NCBI GenBank assembly: GCA_013360745.1
Contig: JABWBA010000033.1
Coordinates: 1 to 32,906 of the forward strand
Length of the DNA: 32,906 nucleotides
From: Chthonomonadales bacterium
Lineage (GTDB): Bacteria; Armatimonadota; Chthonomonadetes; Chthonomonadales; CAJBBX01
Direction of reading: 5' to 3'
Shown: positions 328 to 12,951 of the stretch, piece after piece
Layout: each line of letters opens with the position of its first letter
How positions within the stretch are numbered: the first letter of the stretch is position 1
The notes under the pieces: model-generated
What the model was told of the DNA's origin: nothing
What the model saw: the letters and a program-made list of their open reading frames with translations, nothing else
Database searches by the model: none
Program-made: the position numbers and the translations under genes

Positions 328-1065
328 CTAGATATAGTGGATCCGATCTTTGTAGCGTGCCAGCATCCGGTTGTTGTACTCGTCCCCACCATCGAGGTTT
401 GCGCTCATGAAGATCGGCGGCTCCACGCCTCTTGCGGTCAGGTTGGAGGCCACCGAGCAGACGAGGGCGTTGACGAGGGCGCAGCCCAGGACGGTAGACA
501 ATGGTCCGACCGGCTGGGCGAATCCCTCGATTGCGACCGCCGCGTCTCCTGCCGGCGCCCCATTGTCCAGTACCACATCGCAGTGATCGATCAGCCTTGT
601 GCCCGTCGAATGCCGACTGGTAACGCTCTGCGTATAGGAGACCGACGTTACGCCGATCGTGCTGACCCCGCAGGACCGGGCTGCGATCGCCATATCGATG
701 GCGACGGCATTCCGCCCCGAAGTCGAAGCGATAAGCGCCAGATCTCCGGATTGCGCACCGGAAGCCTGGAATAGCTCAGCCCCCAATCCCTCGATCCGCT
801 CCAATCGCGAAGTCAGCGTCATCGGGCGCACGAACAGGTTCATGCCGTGCGGGTAGATGGGGTTCACGACCATCAAGCCGCCGGTGCGATAGACAAGCTC
901 CTCTGCAATCATAAAGGAATGGCTGGCGCCGAAGGCAAAGAGGCTTCGGCCTTGAACGATCGTGTCGGTCATCAGCCCCGCTGCGCGCTCGACCGCTTCG
1001 GCCTGCGATTGGACCAGACGCTCGAGCGCCCCTACTGCGACCTGGATATAGCGTTCCGCTGACAT
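328..1065 (-). CDS. SIS-domain phosphosugar-binding protein, UPF0309/COG4821 type
   Basis: This 245-residue protein is a single sugar-isomerase (SIS) domain of the UPF0309/COG4821 type, a group thought to bind phosphosugars but without a firmly established reaction. Visible hallmarks are FGASHS near residues 45-50, EELVYRTGG (55-63), the phosphate-loop STSGRN (114-119), SRHSTGTRL (150-158), NGAPAGDA (168-175) and the C-terminal SANLDGGDEYN (221-231). I place the start at the ATG at 1065, because AAGGAG (1074-1079) lies exactly 8 bases ahead. An upstream in-frame start at 1107 would overlap the previous gene and lacks such a site. It is the last gene of the leftward operon, 22 bases after its paralogue, and is probably cytoplasmic. 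Of the two paralogues it is the one with intact family motifs. The substrate is unknown. Confidence 0.85.
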   Translation of the reverse strand: MSAERYIQVAVGALERLVQSQAEAVERAAGLMTDTIVQGRSLFAFGASHSFMIAEELVYRTGGLMVVNPIYPHGMNLFVRPMTLTSRLERIEGLGAELFQASGAQSGDLALIASTSGRNAVAIDMAIAARSCGVSTIGVTSVSYTQSVTSRHSTGTRLIDHCDVVLDNGAPAGDAAVAIEGFAQPVGPLSTVLGCALVNALVCSVASNLTARGVEPPIFMSANLDGGDEYNNRMLARYKDRIHYI

Positions 1066-1073
1066 GGACAGAT

Positions 1074-1079
1074 CTCCTT
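1074..1079 (-). promoter_or_regulatory. Ribosome binding site deciding the start of the last SIS gene
   Basis: On the minus strand AAGGAG sits 8 bases before the ATG at 1065. It makes the internal ATG the likely start rather than the longer in-frame start at 1107. The site lies in the 22-base gap after the upstream gene. Confidence 0.7.
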
Positions 1080-1087
1080 CATAGGGC

Positions 1088-1825
1088 TCAATAGCCCTGG
1101 TCGTCAAACCGTTTGCGAGCCGCCTCGTAGAACTCCTTGCCGCCCGACCGATTGACGCTCATGAACACGGTGGGCGGCGTCCCCGCTGCCGCCATCCGGA
1201 CCATCACTTGCTCCCAGATGAGCCAGCCGGTAAACGAGAACGCAATGCCGGAGAGGGGCAGGACCGCAGTGTCGATCCCATCGATCTCGACGCCCGCGTC
1301 CCCGTAGGGCGCACAGATATCCACGGCGACGTCCACCGCCTCCCGAAGACGGAGCCCCGAAGGGTGCAGGGATGTCGTTTCGGCTGAATAGGCGAATGAG
1401 GTCAGGCCGACGGTGCGGACGCCGACCTCGCGGCAGGCGAGCGCGAGCGCCACGGGCTGGACGTTGCGGCCCGATACACTGCCCATGTACACGACATCCC
1501 CCTCTCGGAGGTTGCTCGCCGTAACGGCCAGGCGGATCGCTTCGACCTCGCGATGGACCCGTGCGGTGGTCTCGCGATCGGATAGGCAGGCCGCAACCGT
1601 ATCCTGGACCGAAAAGGCATGGCCGAACTGATGCAACGCGGCAAGGCCTCCGGCGCGATTGAGAAAGTCTCCCTGAATGCCGTGTCCGATCTCTGCGCAG
1701 AACAGGGCGCCGCGATGGGTCAGGGCATGGATGGCAAGGTCCGCAGCCCGGCCTATGGCGTCTGATTGCGACGATTCGATGTCGTCGAGGAGCTTTCGAA
1801 CCGCCCTTCCATACGGTGATCTCAT
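1088..1825 (-). CDS. SIS-domain protein, diverged paralogue of the neighbouring UPF0309-like gene
   Basis: This 245-residue SIS-domain protein has the same length and motif order as the gene downstream (328-1065), so the pair probably arose by tandem duplication. SVSGRN (116-121) keeps the sugar-phosphate loop and CAPYGDAGVE (171-180) matches the second family block. Two other blocks have changed: the first glycine loop reads CAEIGHG instead of FGASHS, and the C-terminal block reads SVNRSGGKEFY (223-233) where the paralogue has SANLDGGDEYN. Loss of the acidic DGGDE suggests altered chemistry, a regulatory role, or a partner subunit in a mixed oligomer; all of these are inference. The start overlaps the kinase stop by four bases (ATGA, 1822-1825), which points to coupled translation. 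Function and substrate are unknown. Confidence 0.8.
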   Translation of the reverse strand: MRSPYGRAVRKLLDDIESSQSDAIGRAADLAIHALTHRGALFCAEIGHGIQGDFLNRAGGLAALHQFGHAFSVQDTVAACLSDRETTARVHREVEAIRLAVTASNLREGDVVYMGSVSGRNVQPVALALACREVGVRTVGLTSFAYSAETTSLHPSGLRLREAVDVAVDICAPYGDAGVEIDGIDTAVLPLSGIAFSFTGWLIWEQVMVRMAAAGTPPTVFMSVNRSGGKEFYEAARKRFDDQGY

Positions 1826-2826
1826 CCGTGTTGGTCCTTATCCTTGTCGTATTCATAGCGAAGTCTCAGGGCGAAGTCCGCAGCGATCCCATCCATCGTC
1901 CGAGAGGCTGCGAGTATTACCCCGACCACCTCGGGCGGTGTCGGGACGATCATACGAAGGCGGGGCGCGATCCGAGCCGCTCGGTCGCTGAATCGTTCCC
2001 AGTAGATCCTCGATTTCCGCGCGACGCTGCCCGCGGCGATGCATGGCAGGTCCGCATCGACCATATCGAGCCCGGCGACCACGTCACGAAACGTTTCCAG
2101 CAACCCGTCGGCGGCTTCTTCGAGGATCCGTCGAGCGATCCCGTCGCCCGACGAGGCGTGGGCGTCGACGATGCGGGCAAGGCTTGCGACTTCCGAGCGA
2201 TCCGGGCACTCTAGCATGTACTCCACGAGGCCCATGCCTTCCTTCCGGTGGAACTGCTGGCACGCCCGCTGAACGGGTTCGACCAGCGTCGTCGCATGGC
2301 GCGGATGCCAATGGGCTCGCGCGACCGCCCGTATCGCTCGCAGGCCGATGTCGAACGCACTGCCGGAGTCGCCGAGAAGCGGGCCAAGCGCATCCAGACA
2401 CAACTCTCGCCCGTCGCTCGTGCGCCCGTACACGAACGCGCCGGTGCCCGCTAGGGCGACGACGCCTGCGCTGGCGTTGGCCAGGGCCATCGGCCCCTCG
2501 CACTCCCGCACCGGGTGGTAGACGAGGTTCTCCGTGAGACGCCGATCGAGGATGTCATCGGGCAGCGACGCTCGGCCGGCGATGTGGAGCGTATCGACTC
2601 GCATGGGCAGAAGCGGCTCGGTCGCCCGACGTACCGCCTCCCGTAGTGTCTCCAGGCTTCTGCCTGCGCCCTCCGCACCCCGCCCGCTGGCCGCGTCGTG
2701 CACGCTGCACGAACCCTGCCCTACGATCGCACCCGACGCATCAACGACCAGACAATCGGTCTTCGTGCCGCCCGAGTCGAGGCCGAGAACGTAGATCGGG
2801 GGAGACGGATCCGTCACGGTGGACAT
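1822..2826 (-). CDS. BadF/BadG-family kinase, N-acetylglucosamine-kinase-like
   Basis: This 334-residue protein has the actin/hexokinase-type ATPase fold of the BadF/BadG family and looks most like the N-acetylglucosamine kinase branch; it has no cysteine cluster of the benzoyl-CoA-reductase type. The phosphate-1 loop is GLDSGGTKTD (15-24), the phosphate-2 block AGTGAFVYG (126-134) and the sugar/adenosine block LGDSGSAFDIG (151-161). Two deviations stand out. The usual NDA catalytic block before the phosphate-2 loop reads CEG around Glu110, so the normal Asp is apparently Glu. The family's LGDEGSG loop has Ser in place of Glu. It probably phosphorylates a sugar or amino sugar that the SIS proteins then handle. 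It starts 34 bases after the radical-enzyme stop and overlaps the next gene by 4 bases. The substrate is not known. Confidence 0.8.
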   Translation of the reverse strand: MSTVTDPSPPIYVLGLDSGGTKTDCLVVDASGAIVGQGSCSVHDAASGRGAEGAGRSLETLREAVRRATEPLLPMRVDTLHIAGRASLPDDILDRRLTENLVYHPVRECEGPMALANASAGVVALAGTGAFVYGRTSDGRELCLDALGPLLGDSGSAFDIGLRAIRAVARAHWHPRHATTLVEPVQRACQQFHRKEGMGLVEYMLECPDRSEVASLARIVDAHASSGDGIARRILEEAADGLLETFRDVVAGLDMVDADLPCIAAGSVARKSRIYWERFSDRAARIAPRLRMIVPTPPEVVGVILAASRTMDGIAADFALRLRYEYDKDKDQHG

Positions 2827-2860
2827 CCTGCTGCGCCGAGCGGTCGACCGCGACCCGGTC

Positions 2861-5254
2861 TTATAGCTCCTCGTGCTCCGTGCGCGCGATGATCTCGTCC
2901 TGAAGCGCAGGCGTCAGGTCGCCAAAATAATCGCTGTACCCTGCGACGCGGACAATCAGGCCCCGATACTGTTCCGGATGCGCTTTGGCTTCGCGCAGAG
3001 TCTCCGCTGTGACCACGTTGAACTGTATGTGGTGGCCGCCCAACCGGAAATAGCTCCGAATCAGGTCGGTGAGACGCCGCAACCCCCCGTCGCCGTTGAG
3101 CACCGACGGACTGAACTTCATATTGAGGAGCGTGCCGCCGGTTCGTTCATGGTCCAGTTTGGCCACGGATCGAATCACAGCCGTTGGGCCGTTGCGATCC
3201 GCCCCCTGCACGGGCGAAATCCCCTCCGACAGAGGCAGTCCGGCACGACGTCCATCGGGAGTGGCGCCGGTAACCGAGCCGAAGTAGATATGGCAGGTGG
3301 TTGGAAGCATGTCGACGTGGTACTCGCCTCCCCGGCTGTTCGGTCGGCCGTCGATCGCATCGAAGTATATATCGAATACCGTCCGCATCAAGCGATCCGC
3401 CCGATCATCGTCGTTTCCATACCGTGGCGGCCTGCTTATGAGGCATTGACGGAGGCTCTCGTAACCCTTGAAATCGGCTGCGAGCGCGGCGAGGAGATCC
3501 CGTATGGGCAGGGTGCGGTGTGTGGGCTCAACGCCGTCCACAGGGTCAGCCTCGTCCGGAAAGACGAAGCTCCGAAGGGCGGAGAGGGAATCGGTGACCG
3601 TGCCGAGTCCGACGCCCTGGACGTAGCTGGTGTTGTATCGTGCGCCACCGGCGTTGTAGTCCATGCCTTTCGCGATGCAGTCGTCGATCAGCAAGGATAG
3701 AAACGGGGCGGGCATCCGGGTCGCGTACAGGCGTTCGATAACGTGGTTGCCCTTTAGTTTGATGTCGGCAAAGTGACGTACCTGAGTCCGGAACGCGTCG
3801 AGCAGCCCGTCGAACGACGTCATGCCGAGCGGATCTGCGGTCCGTAGACCGATCTGTTTGCCGGTCCGAGGATCTCGTCCCCGATGCAGGGTGATCTCCA
3901 GCACTTTGGGCAGGTTGAAGTAGCCCGTCAGGATGTACGCTTCTTTTCCGAAGGCGCCCGCTTCGACGCAACCGCTGGTCCCGCCGCAACGAGCGTCTTC
4001 GAGCGTTTTACCCTGCCGAAGGAGCTCGGCGATCACGGCATCGGCGTTGAACACGGATGGCTGACCCCGCCCTTCTCGGATCACCTTGCCGGCGGCCTCT
4101 AGGAATCGGTCCGGGCTCTTCGCGCTTACCTGGATGTTGGAGCTCGGCTGCACCAGCTGCATCTCATCGATGACATCGAGGAGCAGATAGGTCAGCTCGT
4201 TGCAGCCATCGCTGCCGTCAGGGCGCACGCCGCCGAGATTGATATTGCAGAAATCCGTATAGGTGCCGCTCTCCGCAGCCGTGACCCCGACCTTTGGCGG
4301 CGCGGGCTGGTTATTGAACTTGACCCAGAAGCATTGCAGCAGCTCCCGCGCTTGTTCTGGAGTCAGGGAGCCGTTGTCGATATCCCTTCGATAGAAGGGA
4401 TATAGATGCTGATCGAGCCGTCCGGGACAGAACGAGTCCCACGTGTTGAGCTCCGTGATCACGCCCAGATGACAGAACCAGTAGGCCTGCAGCGCCTCAT
4501 GGAACGTCCGGGGCGCTTGATCGGGGACCCGTTCGCAAATCTCAGCGATCGCCAACAGCTCCGCCGCCCGCACCGGATCGCTCTCATGCGCTGCCATGGA
4601 GCGGGCGAGAGCCGCATGCCGGACAGCGAACCGGACAAGGGCGTCCGCGCACAGGTCCATGGCCTTGAGCTGTTCCTGTTTGTCGAAGGCCGAAGGGTCT
4701 GTGCGCCAATCGAGCGCATCCAGCGCTTCGCGTATCCGAGCGCGCAGATCTCGCATGCCCATTCGATAGATCTTATCGTCGAGGACGGTATGGCCGGGGG
4801 CGCGCTGTTCCATGAACTCCGTAAAGACACCCGCCGCATAGGCCGCCTGCCATTCCTCGGTCATCCGGCTGAAGATGACGTCCCGCATCGAACGGCCAGC
4901 CCAGTATGGAATGATCTTGTTCGCATACGCTTCGCGGACCTCAGCCGACGTTTCATAGCGGACTCGGGGTCGGTCGTGGAGCACGGTCAGGTCGTCGAGG
5001 CTGTGGCAGCATAGTTCCGGATACGTCGGGACCGCCTTTGGAGCCGGTCCCCGTTCGCCGACAATCAGCTCGCCCGGGCCGATATAGAGGGTTTTGCGGC
5101 TCAGGAGCGCATGGAAGATCCGCGCTCGATGCATCGTCGCCGAGGCCTCGAAGGATTCTCTGTCGGCGAGCGTGACGATCTCGGCTCGTTCCGAGCTGAT
5201 GTACGGCGTCAGGTTAACGCTGAGCTCACGCAGTCTCGCTGTTCGTTCCGTCAT
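2861..5254 (-). CDS. Glycyl radical enzyme, HypD-like (trans-4-hydroxyproline dehydratase type)
   Basis: This 797-residue protein is a complete glycyl radical enzyme. The catalytic cysteine and general base lie in GTSGCVEAG (Cys429, Glu431), and the C-terminal radical motif RVAGYSDYF puts the glycyl radical on Gly772. Length and running sequence fit trans-4-hydroxy-L-proline dehydratase, which removes water from hydroxyproline to give pyrroline-5-carboxylate. Comparing from memory with the Clostridioides difficile enzyme, the residues I recall lining its pocket are all present: Phe147, His155, Asp273, Ser329, Asp334, Phe335, Tyr445 and Thr652. The neighbours are a sugar kinase and two SIS proteins, with no proC and no radical-SAM activase, so a different substrate cannot be excluded. 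The start ATG follows GAGGAGAGG at good spacing. The enzyme would be cytoplasmic and oxygen-sensitive. Confidence 0.85.
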   Translation of the reverse strand: MTERTARLRELSVNLTPYISSERAEIVTLADRESFEASATMHRARIFHALLSRKTLYIGPGELIVGERGPAPKAVPTYPELCCHSLDDLTVLHDRPRVRYETSAEVREAYANKIIPYWAGRSMRDVIFSRMTEEWQAAYAAGVFTEFMEQRAPGHTVLDDKIYRMGMRDLRARIREALDALDWRTDPSAFDKQEQLKAMDLCADALVRFAVRHAALARSMAAHESDPVRAAELLAIAEICERVPDQAPRTFHEALQAYWFCHLGVITELNTWDSFCPGRLDQHLYPFYRRDIDNGSLTPEQARELLQCFWVKFNNQPAPPKVGVTAAESGTYTDFCNINLGGVRPDGSDGCNELTYLLLDVIDEMQLVQPSSNIQVSAKSPDRFLEAAGKVIREGRGQPSVFNADAVIAELLRQGKTLEDARCGGTSGCVEAGAFGKEAYILTGYFNLPKVLEITLHRGRDPRTGKQIGLRTADPLGMTSFDGLLDAFRTQVRHFADIKLKGNHVIERLYATRMPAPFLSLLIDDCIAKGMDYNAGGARYNTSYVQGVGLGTVTDSLSALRSFVFPDEADPVDGVEPTHRTLPIRDLLAALAADFKGYESLRQCLISRPPRYGNDDDRADRLMRTVFDIYFDAIDGRPNSRGGEYHVDMLPTTCHIYFGSVTGATPDGRRAGLPLSEGISPVQGADRNGPTAVIRSVAKLDHERTGGTLLNMKFSPSVLNGDGGLRRLTDLIRSYFRLGGHHIQFNVVTAETLREAKAHPEQYRGLIVRVAGYSDYFGDLTPALQDEIIARTEHEEL

Positions 5255-5906: not shown

Positions 5907-7199
5907 TCAGCGACTGCCAAAGTGCTGAATGCGGGCGCTCTCCTTAAACTCGGCATAGGCCTTGGCAAAACGGGGGGCATTGATCCGGTTACCCTTGTTG
6001 TTCCGTACCAGCAGCTCGGAGGTCTCGCGAACTTCCTCGAACGTATATCGGCGCGCCGGTTTGCGGCCGATGCATCGAACGATCCACCACATGTTGCCGA
6101 GCTTCGCGGGTCCGATCTGGCGGTTGGCTTCAAGGTTCTTGGCCAGTTGATCGATACCGAGCGCGTGCATCGTCATGGATCGGCCCAGGTAGTAAGCGGG
6201 CAACAGTCCTCCATTCGTCGCGCTGTCATGCAGGCTATATTTGGACGCTACGGTAGAGAACGGCTTACCGGCTCGGAGTTCCCTGATCGCCTGCTCAGCC
6301 GCTGGTTTGGTCGGTGTTGCGATAACCGCTAACTGGACGAACGGCGGTTTATAGTAGATCCCGCGGATATTCCTGGGGTCGGCGTTTCGCCTATAATACT
6401 CCCGCACCTCGGCATCGGATACGGTGATCCCTTTGGTGACCAGGTTCATTTCGCTGAGAACCCGTTTCAGACTCTCACGATATTGCTGCTCGGTCTGATG
6501 CGTCTCGCTGAGTGTCGAGAAGAACTCCGGTATCTTCGCTTCCAGGCGGTACCGGTCCTCGACCTGTTTGTCGGTAGCCTCGGCTCCCTGCGCTTTCAGG
6601 AACTGCCGGCGGAGTTCGCGCTCGGTAAGCATATCCAGCGTCGCGTCGCCGTAGGTTTCATACAGTTCGTCGTTGAGGTCGGATCGTCGAATCACCGAGC
6701 CGTTCACCGCCACCAACGGAGCGATCAGATATCGGCGATGGCGAGCGCGCATCGCGAAGGCGCCGAGCAGACCGGAGAGGATCATGACGATGCAAAGGCC
6801 GAGGATGCCCATCCGGCGTTGAGCCAGGTAGCGGATAGCCGTGGGAGCGATGCCGTGCTCGCGAGCCCGTGCCCAGCGTTCGCGAAAGCGCGAGAACATG
6901 CGCTCGATTCGAGCAATCCGAGCGGCCCGGGCCTGGTCCGATACCAGCCGTGCCGTTTGCTTCCGGCTCCGACGTAACCGAGCCCGTTCCTCGCGGGCGA
7001 GAGCGCGCTCCTCGGCGCCATACTTCAGATTGGCCAGGAAACCGGCACCCCGTCGGCGTTCGCGTTCCGGATCGGGATTCTCTGGTTGTTCCTCTGTTTC
7101 AGCCCTTTCTTCCTGTGACTCCAGCCAGGTCTTCAATTGTTCGACACTGTCCAAACCGGTGGTCTTGTCTTCTGTTTCGTTCCGCTTATCGTCTTCCAA
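5907..7199 (-). CDS. Membrane-anchored parvulin-like foldase (SurA/PrsA/PpiC type)
   Basis: This 430-residue protein has a long, highly charged N-terminal region (1-125, rich in Glu and Arg and probably helical). One transmembrane helix follows at about 131-150, then a SurA/PrsA-like chaperone region (160-280) with the typical VNGSVIRRSDLND opening. A parvulin-type peptidyl-prolyl isomerase domain lies at about 288-385. It should sit in the inner membrane with its foldase part outside the cytoplasm. The long cytoplasmic charged segment is unusual, because SurA and PrsA start with a signal peptide. The start is a TTG at 7199 with GAGGG about 7 bases ahead; no ATG lies between it and residue 101. 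It begins 9 bases after the aminotransferase stop and is the last gene of that leftward operon. Confidence 0.8.
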   Translation of the reverse strand: MEDDKRNETEDKTTGLDSVEQLKTWLESQEERAETEEQPENPDPERERRRGAGFLANLKYGAEERALAREERARLRRSRKQTARLVSDQARAARIARIERMFSRFRERWARAREHGIAPTAIRYLAQRRMGILGLCIVMILSGLLGAFAMRARHRRYLIAPLVAVNGSVIRRSDLNDELYETYGDATLDMLTERELRRQFLKAQGAEATDKQVEDRYRLEAKIPEFFSTLSETHQTEQQYRESLKRVLSEMNLVTKGITVSDAEVREYYRRNADPRNIRGIYYKPPFVQLAVIATPTKPAAEQAIRELRAGKPFSTVASKYSLHDSATNGGLLPAYYLGRSMTMHALGIDQLAKNLEANRQIGPAKLGNMWWIVRCIGRKPARRYTFEEVRETSELLVRNNKGNRINAPRFAKAYAEFKESARIQHFGSR

Positions 7200-7208
7200 G
7201 ACACGCCC

Positions 7209-8390
7209 TCACAATCCGCTCAGGTGTTGATCAACCGATGCCGCGAACGCGGCGATGTGTTCGCTGGTGTTGTACAGAGCCGCCGATACCCGGACGCCGT
7301 TGCGCGCAGGTACAAGCCTCGTATGGATCCGGTACCGCTCTCGGAGATTACGGCACACGTCCGTTGCATCGTGCCCGTCGAAGGTGAAACAGATGAGACC
7401 GGCGCGACCCTGCGGCGATCGAGGGGTCAGCGCCCGTGCGCCCTTCATCGAGGAGAGCGCATCGAACAGTTCATCAACCAACCGCTCGGAGTGGCGTCGG
7501 ATGCGGTCGTACCCAATCCCGCTCAGATAGTCCATGCTCGCCTTCCAGCCGGTGGCCAGCGCCCAGGAACGGCTACCGTATTCGAAGCGCTGGGCCGTTG
7601 GATGCAGATCCGCCTGACCGGTAGCCGGATTTGCAGCTTGCAGAGAGCCTGCTCCTACCATCCGAACGATGAGCCGATCGCGGCTTTCGGCGCTGGACCA
7701 GAACCAGCCGGTCCCTTTTGGCCCATGGAGCCATTTATGCCCGTTGCCCGCCATGAAATCGCAACCGATCGCCCGCACATCCACGGGCAGAACGCCGCAG
7801 GTGTGGGCGGCGTCCACGAGTGACAGAACCCCCCGATTGCGGGCCCAGGCGCACATCTCCGCAACGGGCAGCCGAGTCCCGGTCTCGCAGGTGACATGGC
7901 TGGTCACCAGCAGTCGAAGTTGCCTGGACCCTGCCCCGTTCAGACGATCGAGCATCGTTTGGGGGTCATCGGAGCATGGCAGTCGGGTAACGGTGATGCC
8001 GCGGGTAGCCTGCAAATGGAGCAGTGGATGAAGGGAGGCTTCGTGCTCTTCGTCGGTGGTGAGGACCTGATCTCCGTCCGACCAGTCCAGGCCCGCGAGC
8101 GCGAGGTTGATCCCGTCGGTGGCGTTGCGCGTCAGTGCGATGTCAGCGGCCTCACCGCCGATCATGTCTCCGATCGCATGGCGGCACCGCTCGGCATCGG
8201 CGGCGAAGTCCATGCCGCACGCCACGCCTTCCCTTTCGAGCGTGGCGGTCGCGTGCAGAAGGGTCTCGACGGCCGGTTCCGGCATCAACCCATAGGTGCC
8301 CGTATTCAGATAGATAAAGCGCTCGAGACCCGGGAAATCACCCCGAATCCGCTCCATGGTTGCGGTGTCCATGCCTGAGGAGGCGCTCAT
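7209..8390 (-). CDS. Class V aminotransferase-fold PLP enzyme (cysteine desulfurase/isopenicillin-N-epimerase-like)
   Basis: This 393-residue protein has the fold-type I PLP architecture of the class V aminotransferase family. Visible landmarks are the N-terminal YLNTGTYG substrate loop (27-34), RNATDGINLAL (88-98, cofactor phosphate region), Asp193 in LVDAAH, which binds the pyridine nitrogen, and the Schiff-base lysine Lys219 in GNGHKWLHGPKGTG. The NTGTYG opening and lack of a mobile active-site cysteine loop favour an epimerase/lyase-like branch over NifS or SufS, but the reaction cannot be read from sequence. Translation starts within the tag stop codon (ATGA, 8387-8390). A glycosylase and a foldase as operon partners give no clear hint of the substrate. 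It is probably cytoplasmic. Confidence 0.85.
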   Translation of the reverse strand: MSASSGMDTATMERIRGDFPGLERFIYLNTGTYGLMPEPAVETLLHATATLEREGVACGMDFAADAERCRHAIGDMIGGEAADIALTRNATDGINLALAGLDWSDGDQVLTTDEEHEASLHPLLHLQATRGITVTRLPCSDDPQTMLDRLNGAGSRQLRLLVTSHVTCETGTRLPVAEMCAWARNRGVLSLVDAAHTCGVLPVDVRAIGCDFMAGNGHKWLHGPKGTGWFWSSAESRDRLIVRMVGAGSLQAANPATGQADLHPTAQRFEYGSRSWALATGWKASMDYLSGIGYDRIRRHSERLVDELFDALSSMKGARALTPRSPQGRAGLICFTFDGHDATDVCRNLRERYRIHTRLVPARNGVRVSAALYNTSEHIAAFAASVDQHLSGL

Positions 8391-8944
8391 ACTTGATCTC
8401 GGCGAAAACAGTCCATGACGTGGTCGTTGACCATGCCGGCCGCCTGCATGTACGCATAGCAGATGGTTGGGCCGACAAACTGAAAGCCGCGCCGTTGGAG
8501 CGCCTTGCTCATTGCCTCGGCCTCCGGCGAACGGGTCGGGATATCGCCTGCTGCTCGGGGTTCGTTATTGATCCGCTGACCGCCCACAAATCGCCAGATG
8601 AACGCATCGAACGAGCCTTCCTCCTCCTGTATCTCGATGAACGATCTTGCATTATGAATGGCCGCGACGATTTTGGAGCGATTCCGGATGATCCTCGGGT
8701 CTTCCACGAGACGATCGACATCTGCTTCCGTAAAGGCGGCCACTCGGGCGGGGTCGAAATCCGCAAAGAGCGCCCGATAGCCCTCACGCTTACGTAGAAC
8801 GGTCAGCCAGCTCAGACCGGCCTGTGCGCCATCCAGAACGATGAACTCATAGTGTATGCGGTCATCGTGGACGGGGACGCCCCACTCTTCATCGTGGTAA
8901 CGGACCATCAACGGATCGCAGAGGGCCCATGCGCAACGATTCAT
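8387..8944 (-). CDS. tag: DNA-3-methyladenine glycosylase I
   Basis: This 185-residue protein excises 3-methyladenine from alkylated DNA. All four zinc ligands of the Escherichia coli enzyme are at identical numbers: Cys4, His17, His175 and Cys179. The MNRCAWA opening and the YHDEEWG block are typical. The base-recognition block reads LDGAQAGLSW, so the position equivalent to Glu38 of E. coli Tag is Asp38, a conservative change within the recognition pocket. The length matches the family. The start overlaps the stop of the large secreted-protein gene by four bases (ATGA, 8941-8944) and its own stop overlaps the aminotransferase start the same way. It is therefore translated from the middle of a polycistronic message, an odd place for a repair gene. 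Confidence 0.95.
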   Translation of the reverse strand: MNRCAWALCDPLMVRYHDEEWGVPVHDDRIHYEFIVLDGAQAGLSWLTVLRKREGYRALFADFDPARVAAFTEADVDRLVEDPRIIRNRSKIVAAIHNARSFIEIQEEEGSFDAFIWRFVGGQRINNEPRAAGDIPTRSPEAEAMSKALQRRGFQFVGPTICYAYMQAAGMVNDHVMDCFRRDQV

Positions 8945-11900
8945 CGTCGGTATACCCGATCAATCGCAAAGGTGACGCCGGGTGTGTTAGCCGGATCGAT
9001 ACGAAGCCCCGTAATCGTCTGTCCGGCCCAGGCCCGGTGCGCACCGGCGGAGATCGTAACCTCGTGCCATTGGTTATCCGGGGCGAAGGTGAACGGGAAC
9101 ACCCTGGTTTCGTCGAAGAACGGGACAGCATCCGTTGTCCAGTAGAACTGTCCGCTGCCGGAGCCGCTCGCCCGAATGCGGAGGACGAGTGTATCGGCCT
9201 CCTGTCCTGTGAACCGGGTATTCGTCCGGACAAGATAGGGATCATCGCCGGTCGTGACGCCGCTAAGGACGCCCTCCGCTGCCTTCAGATAGCCAAGGTC
9301 GTGCTCGGCAACCCAGCCTTCCTCATCGACGACGAAATCGAACTCGCACGATGGCGTCACCGGAGGGGCGAGGGACGATTGCGCATAGCGAATGCCGGCG
9401 ATCGTAACGTCGGTGGGCGCGGCGGTGGGGATCCGGATCAGGACGGCCTTCAGCATTGGATCGTACCGCCAGCCGCTGCGCTCCGGATCGAGCGTTTCCA
9501 CGCGGGGAGCGGCCCGATCGCCGATGACGATGCTCGTCGGAGCGGTTGTGCCGCTGATCATCACCGTACCACGCCTCCCGCCCGAGTGCTCCACCCGGAA
9601 GGTCAGCCTGTCGGATCGGTGCGATACACGACTGAGCCGCCCAATCGACGAGATCCGTACGGTCTGACTCTTGCCCAGCGGAACCAGCGCGGTACGAGGC
9701 TCCTCGGTCCGTCCAAGGTAAGCGAAGGCGGTCTGGAGTATCTGACGCGGGGCGAACTCCCATGCAGCGCGCGCATCGGTAATCGTATGGAGCGAGTCGG
9801 GCCATAGGGCAAGGGTCTCCGGCCTCGTCGATTGCTGGTGCATCGCCGATCGGGCGATCCCGATGGCGATATGGCGCCAGGGAAGGCTGGGAGCGGCCGG
9901 ACTCGGGTCGTATTCGGCGAGTTTCAGGAGCGCCCAGGCGTATCGGAGACCGTTCCACTGGACGACGTTGCCGAACCAGCTTCCCCGCATCTGGGTTGCG
10001 CCGAACACGGGTATCGAGCCGTACCGCATCCATAGCTTGCCCGGGGCGTTCCACACGTATACGAAGGGTAGTCCGGTTATCGCCCAGCGCCTTGCCTCCG
10101 CAAGCCAACGTCGATCCCGGTCGTACCGATAAGCTTCGATGCAGGCGTCTACGGCGATGGCGGACGCGAGGATATCGGGGCTGTGGACCGGAACCTCCCA
10201 CACCTGAGCCGCCCTCGGCACCTCAAACTGGCAGAGGCGGCGCAGGGATTTGATCCCCGCGGCGTAGAGGGCGCGGTCGCCGGTCAGGCGAGCGGCACGG
10301 AGCATCAGGTGCGCCTGATTGGCGATCGTGCCCGACTCCACGGCGCCCGGCGGCCCGAGCTCGTGATAGTCGTAGCCGGTGAAGACGCCGGTATCTCGGC
10401 GATCGGCATCGAAACGGAAGGATCCATCCGCGCCCTCTTGGGCCATGGCGGCGATTAGACCGCCCGCCATGCCCTTGAGCGCCAGGCCGGGGTCTCCCTC
10501 GGCGAACTGCAGGTCATCGCCTGTCTGAGGGGTGATATGCCGCCGGGCGGTCTCGAGTACGCTTCGCCATCGGGGTGCATCGGGATGGTCGGGAAGAAGG
10601 GTGGCGGCCGAATGAAGGTCGAAGGCATAGCTCGGATCGAAACTCGCCTTGCGCCAGATCGCCGGGCCGTAGAGAAAAGGGAGCCAGCCGGAGCCATTGC
10701 TCTGCCACAGGCTCTTCGTATAGGCCTGCATGCTCCAGGCGATCTGAGCCCGGTCATCGCCGCGGGGGGCCGGGGCTGGACGGTCAGCCCGGTACCACCG
10801 AAACCACTCGCGTAATCCGGTCAGGCTCGGGTTCGGTCCCTGCGGCAGCGCCGACGCGAAGAGGGTCGCTTCGATCGTTAGTTTCCGTCCTCTGGTCAGG
10901 AGGCAGGTGTGGTTGAGCGATCCGATTACGTCGTTCTCCGGTCTGCCGTGGGCCGCGCTCGGAGCGGACAATCCGAGACGATGCCCCCGGGCGCCTTCGA
11001 TCCGATCCGGCGAGGCGAAGATCGGCTGGGGGCGATCCGCTAGGCCATCCCAGCGCTGGCGAGGATCCCACAGAAGCGCGACGACACCCCGAACGGTCGC
11101 GACGGACATCGCCGGCACGGTGACCTTATTGGGGTGAGGCGAATAACGAGGCCGGTCGGGATGATCCTCGACGATGTCCAGATCGCTGCTGCTGACCTCG
11201 TCGCCCACGAGCCATTCCAGGCCCGGCAGAACTGCCTCGACGCGCCGCGGATCGTTCCGGCCACCGCCTACGAGGACCGTGGGGCCGTCGAACGCGAGCA
11301 CGGACCGGGTGGCGGTACAGCGGACGCTGATCGAGATTCGGACTGCGCTGGGGGTGAGTTTTCGGATGGTCGTCGTGAACTCCCAGACGCCTCCGCTCCG
11401 GTCTCGCTGAACACCGACCAGTACGGCCCCTGTGGCCGAAGTCCGGACTCGGGTATAGCGCGGTATGAGAGTCTGACGCCCGCCCGCCGGAAGGAGGATC
11501 GTGACGGAGCCGAGGTGCGGGAGGGTGCCAAGAGGCTCGGACGCCGATCCGTTGGCAGAACGCAGCTCGCCGATGGTTCGATCGGTTCCCGTTCGCCAGA
11601 CCATCGGGCCGGCGCTGCCCGACACACGCGCACCGGGCGCGTCGCTGATCGTCAACAGGACGGGCCACGATTGCGCCTTTGCCGCGCGACCGCTCTCGAT
11701 GAGCCGGCACCTGAGGCGACGCACGTCACCGGGCCGGCCTGCGACCCGCACGGTGTAGGCCGTCTCGACACACCGTCCCGGCAACGGCGGCTGGACCAGC
11801 AGAGAACCGTCCGCCGAGGCTGGCTGGAGGAGTGTGACGCCTCGGGGCAGATCCAGCTGCAGCTTGATGGGATCGCCGGCAGCCGTGCCCCTATTGCAGA

Positions 11901-12843
11901 GCCGGGCGGTGATGCGGACGGTGGCATTCGGCCGAGGCAAGCTGGTGGACGCGAGGACCGAAACGAGTTCGACTCGGGGCGTCAGTCGCAGGATGGCCGA
12001 CTGCTCCTCATCGGCTTCCCGGGCGAGGAGCGTTATCGCCCCGGCAACGTGTTGGCCCCGGATGCTCCACTGGAGCGCCCGGGCATCCCCCGGGGCGAGG
12101 GACTCCAGTTCGGCCGGGCCTTCAGCGACGGTCTCCGGTGGGGCCGCTACGGCGACGCTAATCGGGCCGGATTTCGCAAGGCCGATGTTGGCTACTGTGG
12201 CATAGAGTCGCCCGCCGCTGTCCGGTTTGGCAGGATCGGGATAGTAATGCACCCTATCGATTTGCAGGACAGGGCGATGATCGGGCAGGAGCTCGAAGTC
12301 ATCGAACAGCACATCGGCCGGGCCGCCGACGATGCGCACCCCGACGTGGACCCATCGCACATCAGGCGATTGGCTGAAGTCGTAGGGGAGCCGTGTCGAG
12401 CGCCACTGACCATCGCCGACGCTGTCGTGCGGCAGGACGCGGAGGGCTCTGGGTGCGTTGGTATCTTCGACGCCCGTGGCGCCCATCGGGATCACCACCA
12501 GCCACACGGTCGCGTCTCGGGCGGCCTCCAGCATCTGATACCATACCTGGACAATCCCCTTCCGTTGGTCGAGCATCGCGCCCTGGACACCCCGACCGGG
12601 CATGTAGCCCCGATTCAGGCCAGTTTCCGGCGGCATCGGAACGGTCCGCTCCCGGCGGACTCGGATCGAATACTGGCCCGAATGGGCTTGCGGCGACACC
12701 TGGACCGTGTTGCCCACCGCGCTCCAATGAACCGGAAAGTACCGTTCGTCGAGCTCTTCGAAACCGCCGTTGGTGATGCGGTCGGCGCGGCTGATCGCCG
12801 CCAACGCCATTACCAACCCTATCACGGCAACATGGACGCGCAT
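8941..12843 (-). CDS. Large secreted multidomain carbohydrate-type protein
   Basis: This 1300-residue protein starts with a signal peptide (MRVHVAVIGLVMALA..., probable cleavage after about residue 20). It continues with a carbohydrate-binding-like beta domain opening RITNGGFEE (to about 190) and two CARDB/NEW3-like beta domains (about 198-415). Further beta-rich sequence (about 420-640) is followed by an alpha-helical region at about 678-980 that resembles an alpha/alpha-toroid of glycoside hydrolases or lyases. A beta domain (about 1040-1150) and a C-terminal jelly-roll-like domain (1164-1300) complete it. The start is set by GGAGG (12849-12853) five bases before ATG 12843; the longer in-frame ATG at 12864 has no such site. 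I recognise no catalytic signature, so enzyme activity is inferred from architecture only. It heads a leftward operon with tag. Confidence 0.75.
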   Translation of the reverse strand: MRVHVAVIGLVMALAAISRADRITNGGFEELDERYFPVHWSAVGNTVQVSPQAHSGQYSIRVRRERTVPMPPETGLNRGYMPGRGVQGAMLDQRKGIVQVWYQMLEAARDATVWLVVIPMGATGVEDTNAPRALRVLPHDSVGDGQWRSTRLPYDFSQSPDVRWVHVGVRIVGGPADVLFDDFELLPDHRPVLQIDRVHYYPDPAKPDSGGRLYATVANIGLAKSGPISVAVAAPPETVAEGPAELESLAPGDARALQWSIRGQHVAGAITLLAREADEEQSAILRLTPRVELVSVLASTSLPRPNATVRITARLCNRGTAAGDPIKLQLDLPRGVTLLQPASADGSLLVQPPLPGRCVETAYTVRVAGRPGDVRRLRCRLIESGRAAKAQSWPVLLTISDAPGARVSGSAGPMVWRTGTDRTIGELRSANGSASEPLGTLPHLGSVTILLPAGGRQTLIPRYTRVRTSATGAVLVGVQRDRSGGVWEFTTTIRKLTPSAVRISISVRCTATRSVLAFDGPTVLVGGGRNDPRRVEAVLPGLEWLVGDEVSSSDLDIVEDHPDRPRYSPHPNKVTVPAMSVATVRGVVALLWDPRQRWDGLADRPQPIFASPDRIEGARGHRLGLSAPSAAHGRPENDVIGSLNHTCLLTRGRKLTIEATLFASALPQGPNPSLTGLREWFRWYRADRPAPAPRGDDRAQIAWSMQAYTKSLWQSNGSGWLPFLYGPAIWRKASFDPSYAFDLHSAATLLPDHPDAPRWRSVLETARRHITPQTGDDLQFAEGDPGLALKGMAGGLIAAMAQEGADGSFRFDADRRDTGVFTGYDYHELGPPGAVESGTIANQAHLMLRAARLTGDRALYAAGIKSLRRLCQFEVPRAAQVWEVPVHSPDILASAIAVDACIEAYRYDRDRRWLAEARRWAITGLPFVYVWNAPGKLWMRYGSIPVFGATQMRGSWFGNVVQWNGLRYAWALLKLAEYDPSPAAPSLPWRHIAIGIARSAMHQQSTRPETLALWPDSLHTITDARAAWEFAPRQILQTAFAYLGRTEEPRTALVPLGKSQTVRISSIGRLSRVSHRSDRLTFRVEHSGGRRGTVMISGTTAPTSIVIGDRAAPRVETLDPERSGWRYDPMLKAVLIRIPTAAPTDVTIAGIRYAQSSLAPPVTPSCEFDFVVDEEGWVAEHDLGYLKAAEGVLSGVTTGDDPYLVRTNTRFTGQEADTLVLRIRASGSGSGQFYWTTDAVPFFDETRVFPFTFAPDNQWHEVTISAGAHRAWAGQTITGLRIDPANTPGVTFAIDRVYRR

Positions 12844-12848
12844 CCTAT

Positions 12849-12853
12849 CCTCC
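12849..12853 (-). promoter_or_regulatory. Ribosome binding site deciding the start of the large secreted protein
   Basis: On the minus strand GGAGG stands five bases before the ATG at 12843. This start gives a clean N-terminal signal peptide, whereas the upstream in-frame ATG at 12864 would add seven residues including charged ones and has no such site. Confidence 0.65.
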
Positions 12854-12951
12854 CGATGGACCAATCCGCAACGTTGATTCTACACCAGTCGCGATCGTAC
12901 GCGAACCCTCAAGAGGGCGGCCGGAATACGGGGTATGCTCCGTAGACTACG

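Follow-up and report, generated by a model that had tools for sequence, protein, structure and literature searches.

A probable trans-4-hydroxy-L-proline dehydratase in an operon-like cluster with a BadF-family sugar kinase and two SIS proteins in the Chthonomonadales

Introduction

The glycyl radical enzyme (GRE) trans-4-hydroxy-L-proline dehydratase (HypD) has been characterized from C. difficile (CdHypD; PDB 6vxc/6vxe), for which the residues H160, D278, S334, D339, F340, C434, E436, Y450, T645, and G765 were tested by mutation (PMC7077986). Among SIS proteins, NagS from Streptomyces (SCO4393; PDB 9eol) dehydrates GlcNAc-6P to 6P-chromogen I using active sites built across the dimer interface, its confirmed orthologues share 58.7% identity or more, and homologues at 26-36% identity are inactive or nearly so as GlcNAc-6P dehydratases (PMC12680351). 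True NagS has been reported from the Streptomycetaceae only. Relatives of both enzymes, together with a BadF/BcrAD-family kinase whose closest solved match is a MurK-type MurNAc/GlcNAc kinase (PDB 8zo3), are encoded side by side in a Chthonomonadales bacterium (Armatimonadota; contig JABWBA010000033.1). The window, meaning the whole stretch of DNA analyzed, spans 32,906 nucleotides.

Gene content and organization of the locus

All four open reading frames described in a sequence-only reading of this DNA were located as claimed on the minus strand, and family models confirmed its assignment of the partner genes to a BadF-family kinase and two SIS proteins. The features were:

2861..5254, minus strand, probable HypD (trans-4-hydroxy-L-proline dehydratase, GRE), 797 aa, from NF043068, the CdHypD 6vxc match, pocket residues, and tree
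1822..2826, minus strand, BadF/BcrAD ATPase-family sugar kinase, MurNAc/GlcNAc-kinase-like, PF01869 at 72 bits
1088..1825, minus strand, SIS1, SIS_2 protein and diverged paralogue of NagS-like SIS2, NF002805 at 148 bits
328..1065 (listed ORF 328-1107), minus strand, SIS2, NagS-like SIS_2 protein, NF002805 at 293 bits
5410..5889, plus strand, Bcp-type peroxiredoxin, outside the operon, PF00578 at 147 bits

The reading order on the minus strand is HypD, BadF kinase, SIS1, and SIS2, with 34 bp between HypD and BadF, a 4-bp overlap between BadF and SIS1, and 22 bp between SIS1 and SIS2, a tight and operon-like arrangement. Clear Shine-Dalgarno sequences precede HypD (GAGGAG) and SIS2 (GAAGGAG), and because the latter lies just past the SIS1 stop, the ATG at 1065 is the more likely SIS2 start than the listed ORF start at 1107. 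The opposite-strand peroxiredoxin gene separates HypD from the minus-strand genes lying further upstream, so that a promoter dedicated to the operon is to be expected. The peroxiredoxin was not seen at the corresponding place in the related genomes G007 and G010, where a peptidyl-prolyl isomerase gene directly precedes HypD. Further upstream (5907-12864), the window encodes the peptidyl-prolyl isomerase, an aminotransferase of class V, and a large protein that resembles glycosidases in an order kept in G007 and G010, to which the peroxiredoxin and a methyladenine glycosylase gene are additions. The first base of the window coincides with a contig end (G000:C7:1, G000 being the window's own genome), limiting the view downstream of SIS2 to 327 bp.

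The glycyl radical enzyme retains the HypD pocket

The window enzyme passed the NCBIfam HypD equivalog model NF043068 (1215.2 bits against a cut-off of 1100), as did the enzymes of G007 and G011, the two scores being 1225 and 1265 bits. Its top solved-structure match was a full-length alignment with CdHypD (6vxc, 1000 bits) followed by glycerol dehydratase (518 bits), whereas matches to PflD (447 bits or less) and YbiW (421 bits) were much weaker despite the shared superfamily. The earlier claim that the HypD pocket residues are present held in full, with 10 of 10 mutation-tested CdHypD residues identical in the alignment (PMC7077986), and the VAGYS glycyl radical motif was likewise shared. 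This ten-residue pattern was common to 84 sequences including CdHypD and the window enzyme, and the pockets of the two other GREs encoded in G000 differed from it. The tree proposed in the sequence-only reading placed the enzyme inside the HypD clade: CdHypD fell in the same clade in FastTree, split from other GREs at 0.91-0.99 support, and IQ-TREE gave 100/100 for the outgroup branch; PflD and YbiW were compared by score rather than in the tree.

HypD membership and the intact pocket are established at the level of sequence. The enzyme is probably a genuine trans-4-hydroxy-L-proline dehydratase, a judgment that forms part of the overall explanation weighed below, with dehydration of trans-4-hydroxyproline to P5C as its predicted activity. 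It would be an ordinary-looking oxygen-sensitive hydroxyproline-breakdown enzyme of an already known kind, extending HypD to a little-studied environmental phylum. A HypD-like protein in another genome (L130:10352-12520, G097) carries N in place of D278 and T in place of E436 with an internal stretch unmatched, and is possibly a decayed or altered HypD.

Activation and the fate of P5C

Unlike CdHypD, the window enzyme has neither an adjacent activase nor a P5C reductase (proC), it shares its operon with genes for a sugar kinase and two SIS proteins, and its P5C probably goes to glutamate. No activase adjoined HypD in any of the six genomes found to carry this operon, and in each of them a single activase, located away from HypD, scored above the TIGR02494 cut-off. 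The only clear GRE activase of G000 lies on a contig other than that of the operon (G000:C36:24423-25133; L131:9357-10253) and reached 273 bits with the HypD-activase model (cut-off 425; 238 of 299 positions matched), and the HypD-adjacent activase of L125 also fell below this cut-off (358 bits). The single activase presumably serves all GREs of its genome, activating them in trans, and an adjacent activase is a customary rather than a defining trait of HypD. G000 has three GREs for one clear activase, and relatives with six GRE matches also have one over the cut-off.

Two independent models (TIGR00112 and PF14748) found no proC in the window or the 97%-complete G000 genome, bearing out the absence remarked upon earlier, nor in G007 and G010, and proC was present elsewhere in the genomes of G006, G009, and G011. 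The gap of a single model was rejected as the cause since PF14748 agreed with TIGR00112. P5C dehydrogenase exceeded a curated cut-off in all six operon genomes, with that of G000 (G000:C8:7915-9444) passing two, including PRK03137, so that the HypD product can go to glutamate. In G000, a route from hydroxyproline via P5C to glutamate would be complete on paper, and in the three proC-bearing genomes proline could be an additional outlet. Missing proC was therefore rejected as a sign of new chemistry, and with proC in half of the operon genomes it calls for neither of the explanations offered in the sequence-only reading, namely a hydroxyproline-linked glycan or a sugar-derived substrate. HypD need not travel with an activase or proC, such that P5C may go to glutamate.

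Regarding proline supply, proA had no match over the cut-off in any of the six operon genomes. Ornithine cyclodeaminase was considered as a proline source; none was found in G000 and it was found in the other five, which allows no general conclusion. A proline dehydrogenase beside the G000 P5C dehydrogenase was also discounted, the neighbor being a GFO/IDH/MocA oxidoreductase. With no matches to proA, proC, or ornithine cyclodeaminase, G000 may be auxotrophic for proline or obtain it by a route other than these.

The kinase and the SIS proteins

The BadF protein resembles MurNAc/GlcNAc kinases and its substrate would be an amino sugar, as suggested by family membership and by its best PDB match, the MurNAc/GlcNAc kinase 8zo3, although at 76 bits the similarity is weak. 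It differs from the MurK-type enzyme in that a Glu apparently occupies the place of the canonical catalytic Asp, judged by the Asp position in human NAGK. This Glu was invariant in all aligned BadF kinases of the type encoded with SIS1 and SIS2 (window 1822-2826 and homologues in L183-L262) and, where checked, precedes GTG by 19 residues.

SIS2 was 43% identical to NagS SCO4393 (PDB 9eol) over 242 aa and keeps nine of nine tested NagS residues (H53, S54, R64, S91, E94, S119, S121, D179, and N228). SIS1 was 28% identical and keeps seven of them, with S54 replaced by G and S91 by R. The SIS2 identity falls short of the 58.7% orthologue level and, unlike NagS, SIS2 is paired with a divergent paralogue and lies next to a kinase. 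Since NagS homologues at 26-36% identity are inactive or nearly so, SIS2 is named NagS-like only, and dehydration of GlcNAc-6P is a putative reaction offered as a guess. As the NagS active site spans the dimer interface, a SIS1-SIS2 heterodimer is a natural, likewise putative, guess by analogy.

Distribution across the phylum

The HypD-BadF-SIS1-SIS2 order was conserved in six genomes (G000, G006, G007, G009, G010, and G011) of one family and three genera, in line with the neighborhood check suggested from the sequence; the HypD frame is split in two pieces in G006 and runs off the contig in G009. The outer genes differ between a G007/G010 group and a G006/G009/G011 group, the four-gene block being kept in both with close spacing at 65-70% HypD and 44-52% BadF identity. 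The operon layout and its conservation are apparent from these genomes, and the partnership of HypD with the kinase and SIS genes appears as a new, lineage-specific operon. Conserved neighborhoods in which HypD sits with proC and without the kinase and SIS genes had been named beforehand as evidence against the proposal, and part of this was found: none of 74 other HypDs (approximately 59-66% identity; up to 10 kb of DNA fetched on each side) had a BadF or SIS gene nearby, and 65 of them lie next to an activase. Within the same family, G005 and G008 have HypD with an activase and without the BadF-SIS1-SIS2 trio, and G004 has the trio with HypD absent. Monophyly of the operon HypDs received weak support (0.67 in FastTree; 34/65 in IQ-TREE), and hence one single joining event is not proven.

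When SIS1 and BadF were used to search 291 genomes of the phylum, the two genes were found adjoining in about 48 (counted from listed coordinates), usually with SIS2 next, and HypD was attached in only six of these, leaving about 42 with the trio and no adjacent HypD. By sequence, the trio is an independent, self-contained module. Because it usually stands alone, including in G004, its substrate should not be hydroxyproline-specific, and nothing around it elsewhere in the phylum points to hydroxyproline. In other families the trio lies near genes for deacetylases (PIG-L and YdjC) and for proteins resembling beta-galactosidase or WbsX, and some genomes have housekeeping genes there, a genome-to-genome variation on which a shared transporter or glycosidase was rejected. 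A kinase with a NagS-like SIS pair as a phylum-wide module contrasts with the Streptomycetaceae-only report of true NagS.

Interpretation of the gene cluster

The preferred explanation, with a probability of roughly 0.62, is that a genuine HypD stands ahead of a pre-existing amino-sugar module, and that two scavenging routes are co-expressed rather than forming one pathway. The single clear GRE activase, encoded on the other contig, would install the glycyl radical on HypD, the radical would drive hydroxyproline dehydration to P5C, and P5C would most likely be oxidized to glutamate by P5C dehydrogenase in the proC-less G000 and could also become proline in relatives with proC. With the HypD gene placed in front of the self-contained module, the BadF kinase would make an amino-sugar 6-phosphate, which the NagS-like SIS2, perhaps paired with its paralogue SIS1, would dehydrate or isomerize. 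The operon would in this way co-express two anaerobic scavenging routes, the simplest reading of the locus; enzyme activities, trans activation, co-expression, and the amino-sugar substrate are what we infer from gene content. The linkage across three genera despite changing flanks could also reflect a closer metabolic link than co-expression.

One such link would be a single pathway in which the kinase and SIS proteins phosphorylate and split a hydroxyproline conjugate of glycosyl or Amadori type (e.g., GlcNAc-Hyp or fructosyl-Hyp), and HypD consumes the hydroxyproline set free. Lyases, etherases, and deglycases are all known among SIS-domain enzymes, which together with the tight gene order kept while flanks change speaks for such a pathway. 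Against this, about 42 genomes carry the trio without adjacent HypD, the SIS proteins are NagS-like with no fructosamine deglycase among their solved-structure matches, and no glycosidase, peptidase, or glycopeptide gene was observed in common at all six operon loci, making the proposal quite unlikely. The same phylum-wide and mostly solitary occurrence of the trio, together with the lack of a recurring glycosidase or glycopeptide gene in the six loci, weighs against the earlier suggestion of a hydroxyproline-linked glycan as the source. The specific anaerobic route, with the conjugate phosphorylated, split by the SIS pair, and its hydroxyproline taken by HypD, is a shade less likely still, and if true would be the first to connect glycyl radical chemistry with an amino acid in glycosylated or glycated form.

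HypD might instead have arrived in front of the trio a single time and been kept there through common descent, functionally unconnected to it, as the separate occurrence of each within the family (G004 for the trio; G005 and G008 for HypD with activase) would allow. This is unlikely given that linkage and close spacing persist at the observed HypD and BadF divergence with all outer neighbors differing between the two groups. A neofunctionalized GRE acting on a sugar-derived compound, for instance the product of the SIS step, is suggested only by the neighborhood and by the loss of the adjacent activase and, in three genomes, of proC. It is highly improbable in view of the operon-group NF043068 scores of 1215-1265, the P5C dehydrogenase, and proC in three of six operon genomes. 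The move to a sugar substrate considered in the sequence-only reading was likewise rejected on the intact pocket, in which all ten catalytic and binding residues are kept, carboxylate contacts (S334/Y450/T645) and the proline-stacking ring contact (F340) included.
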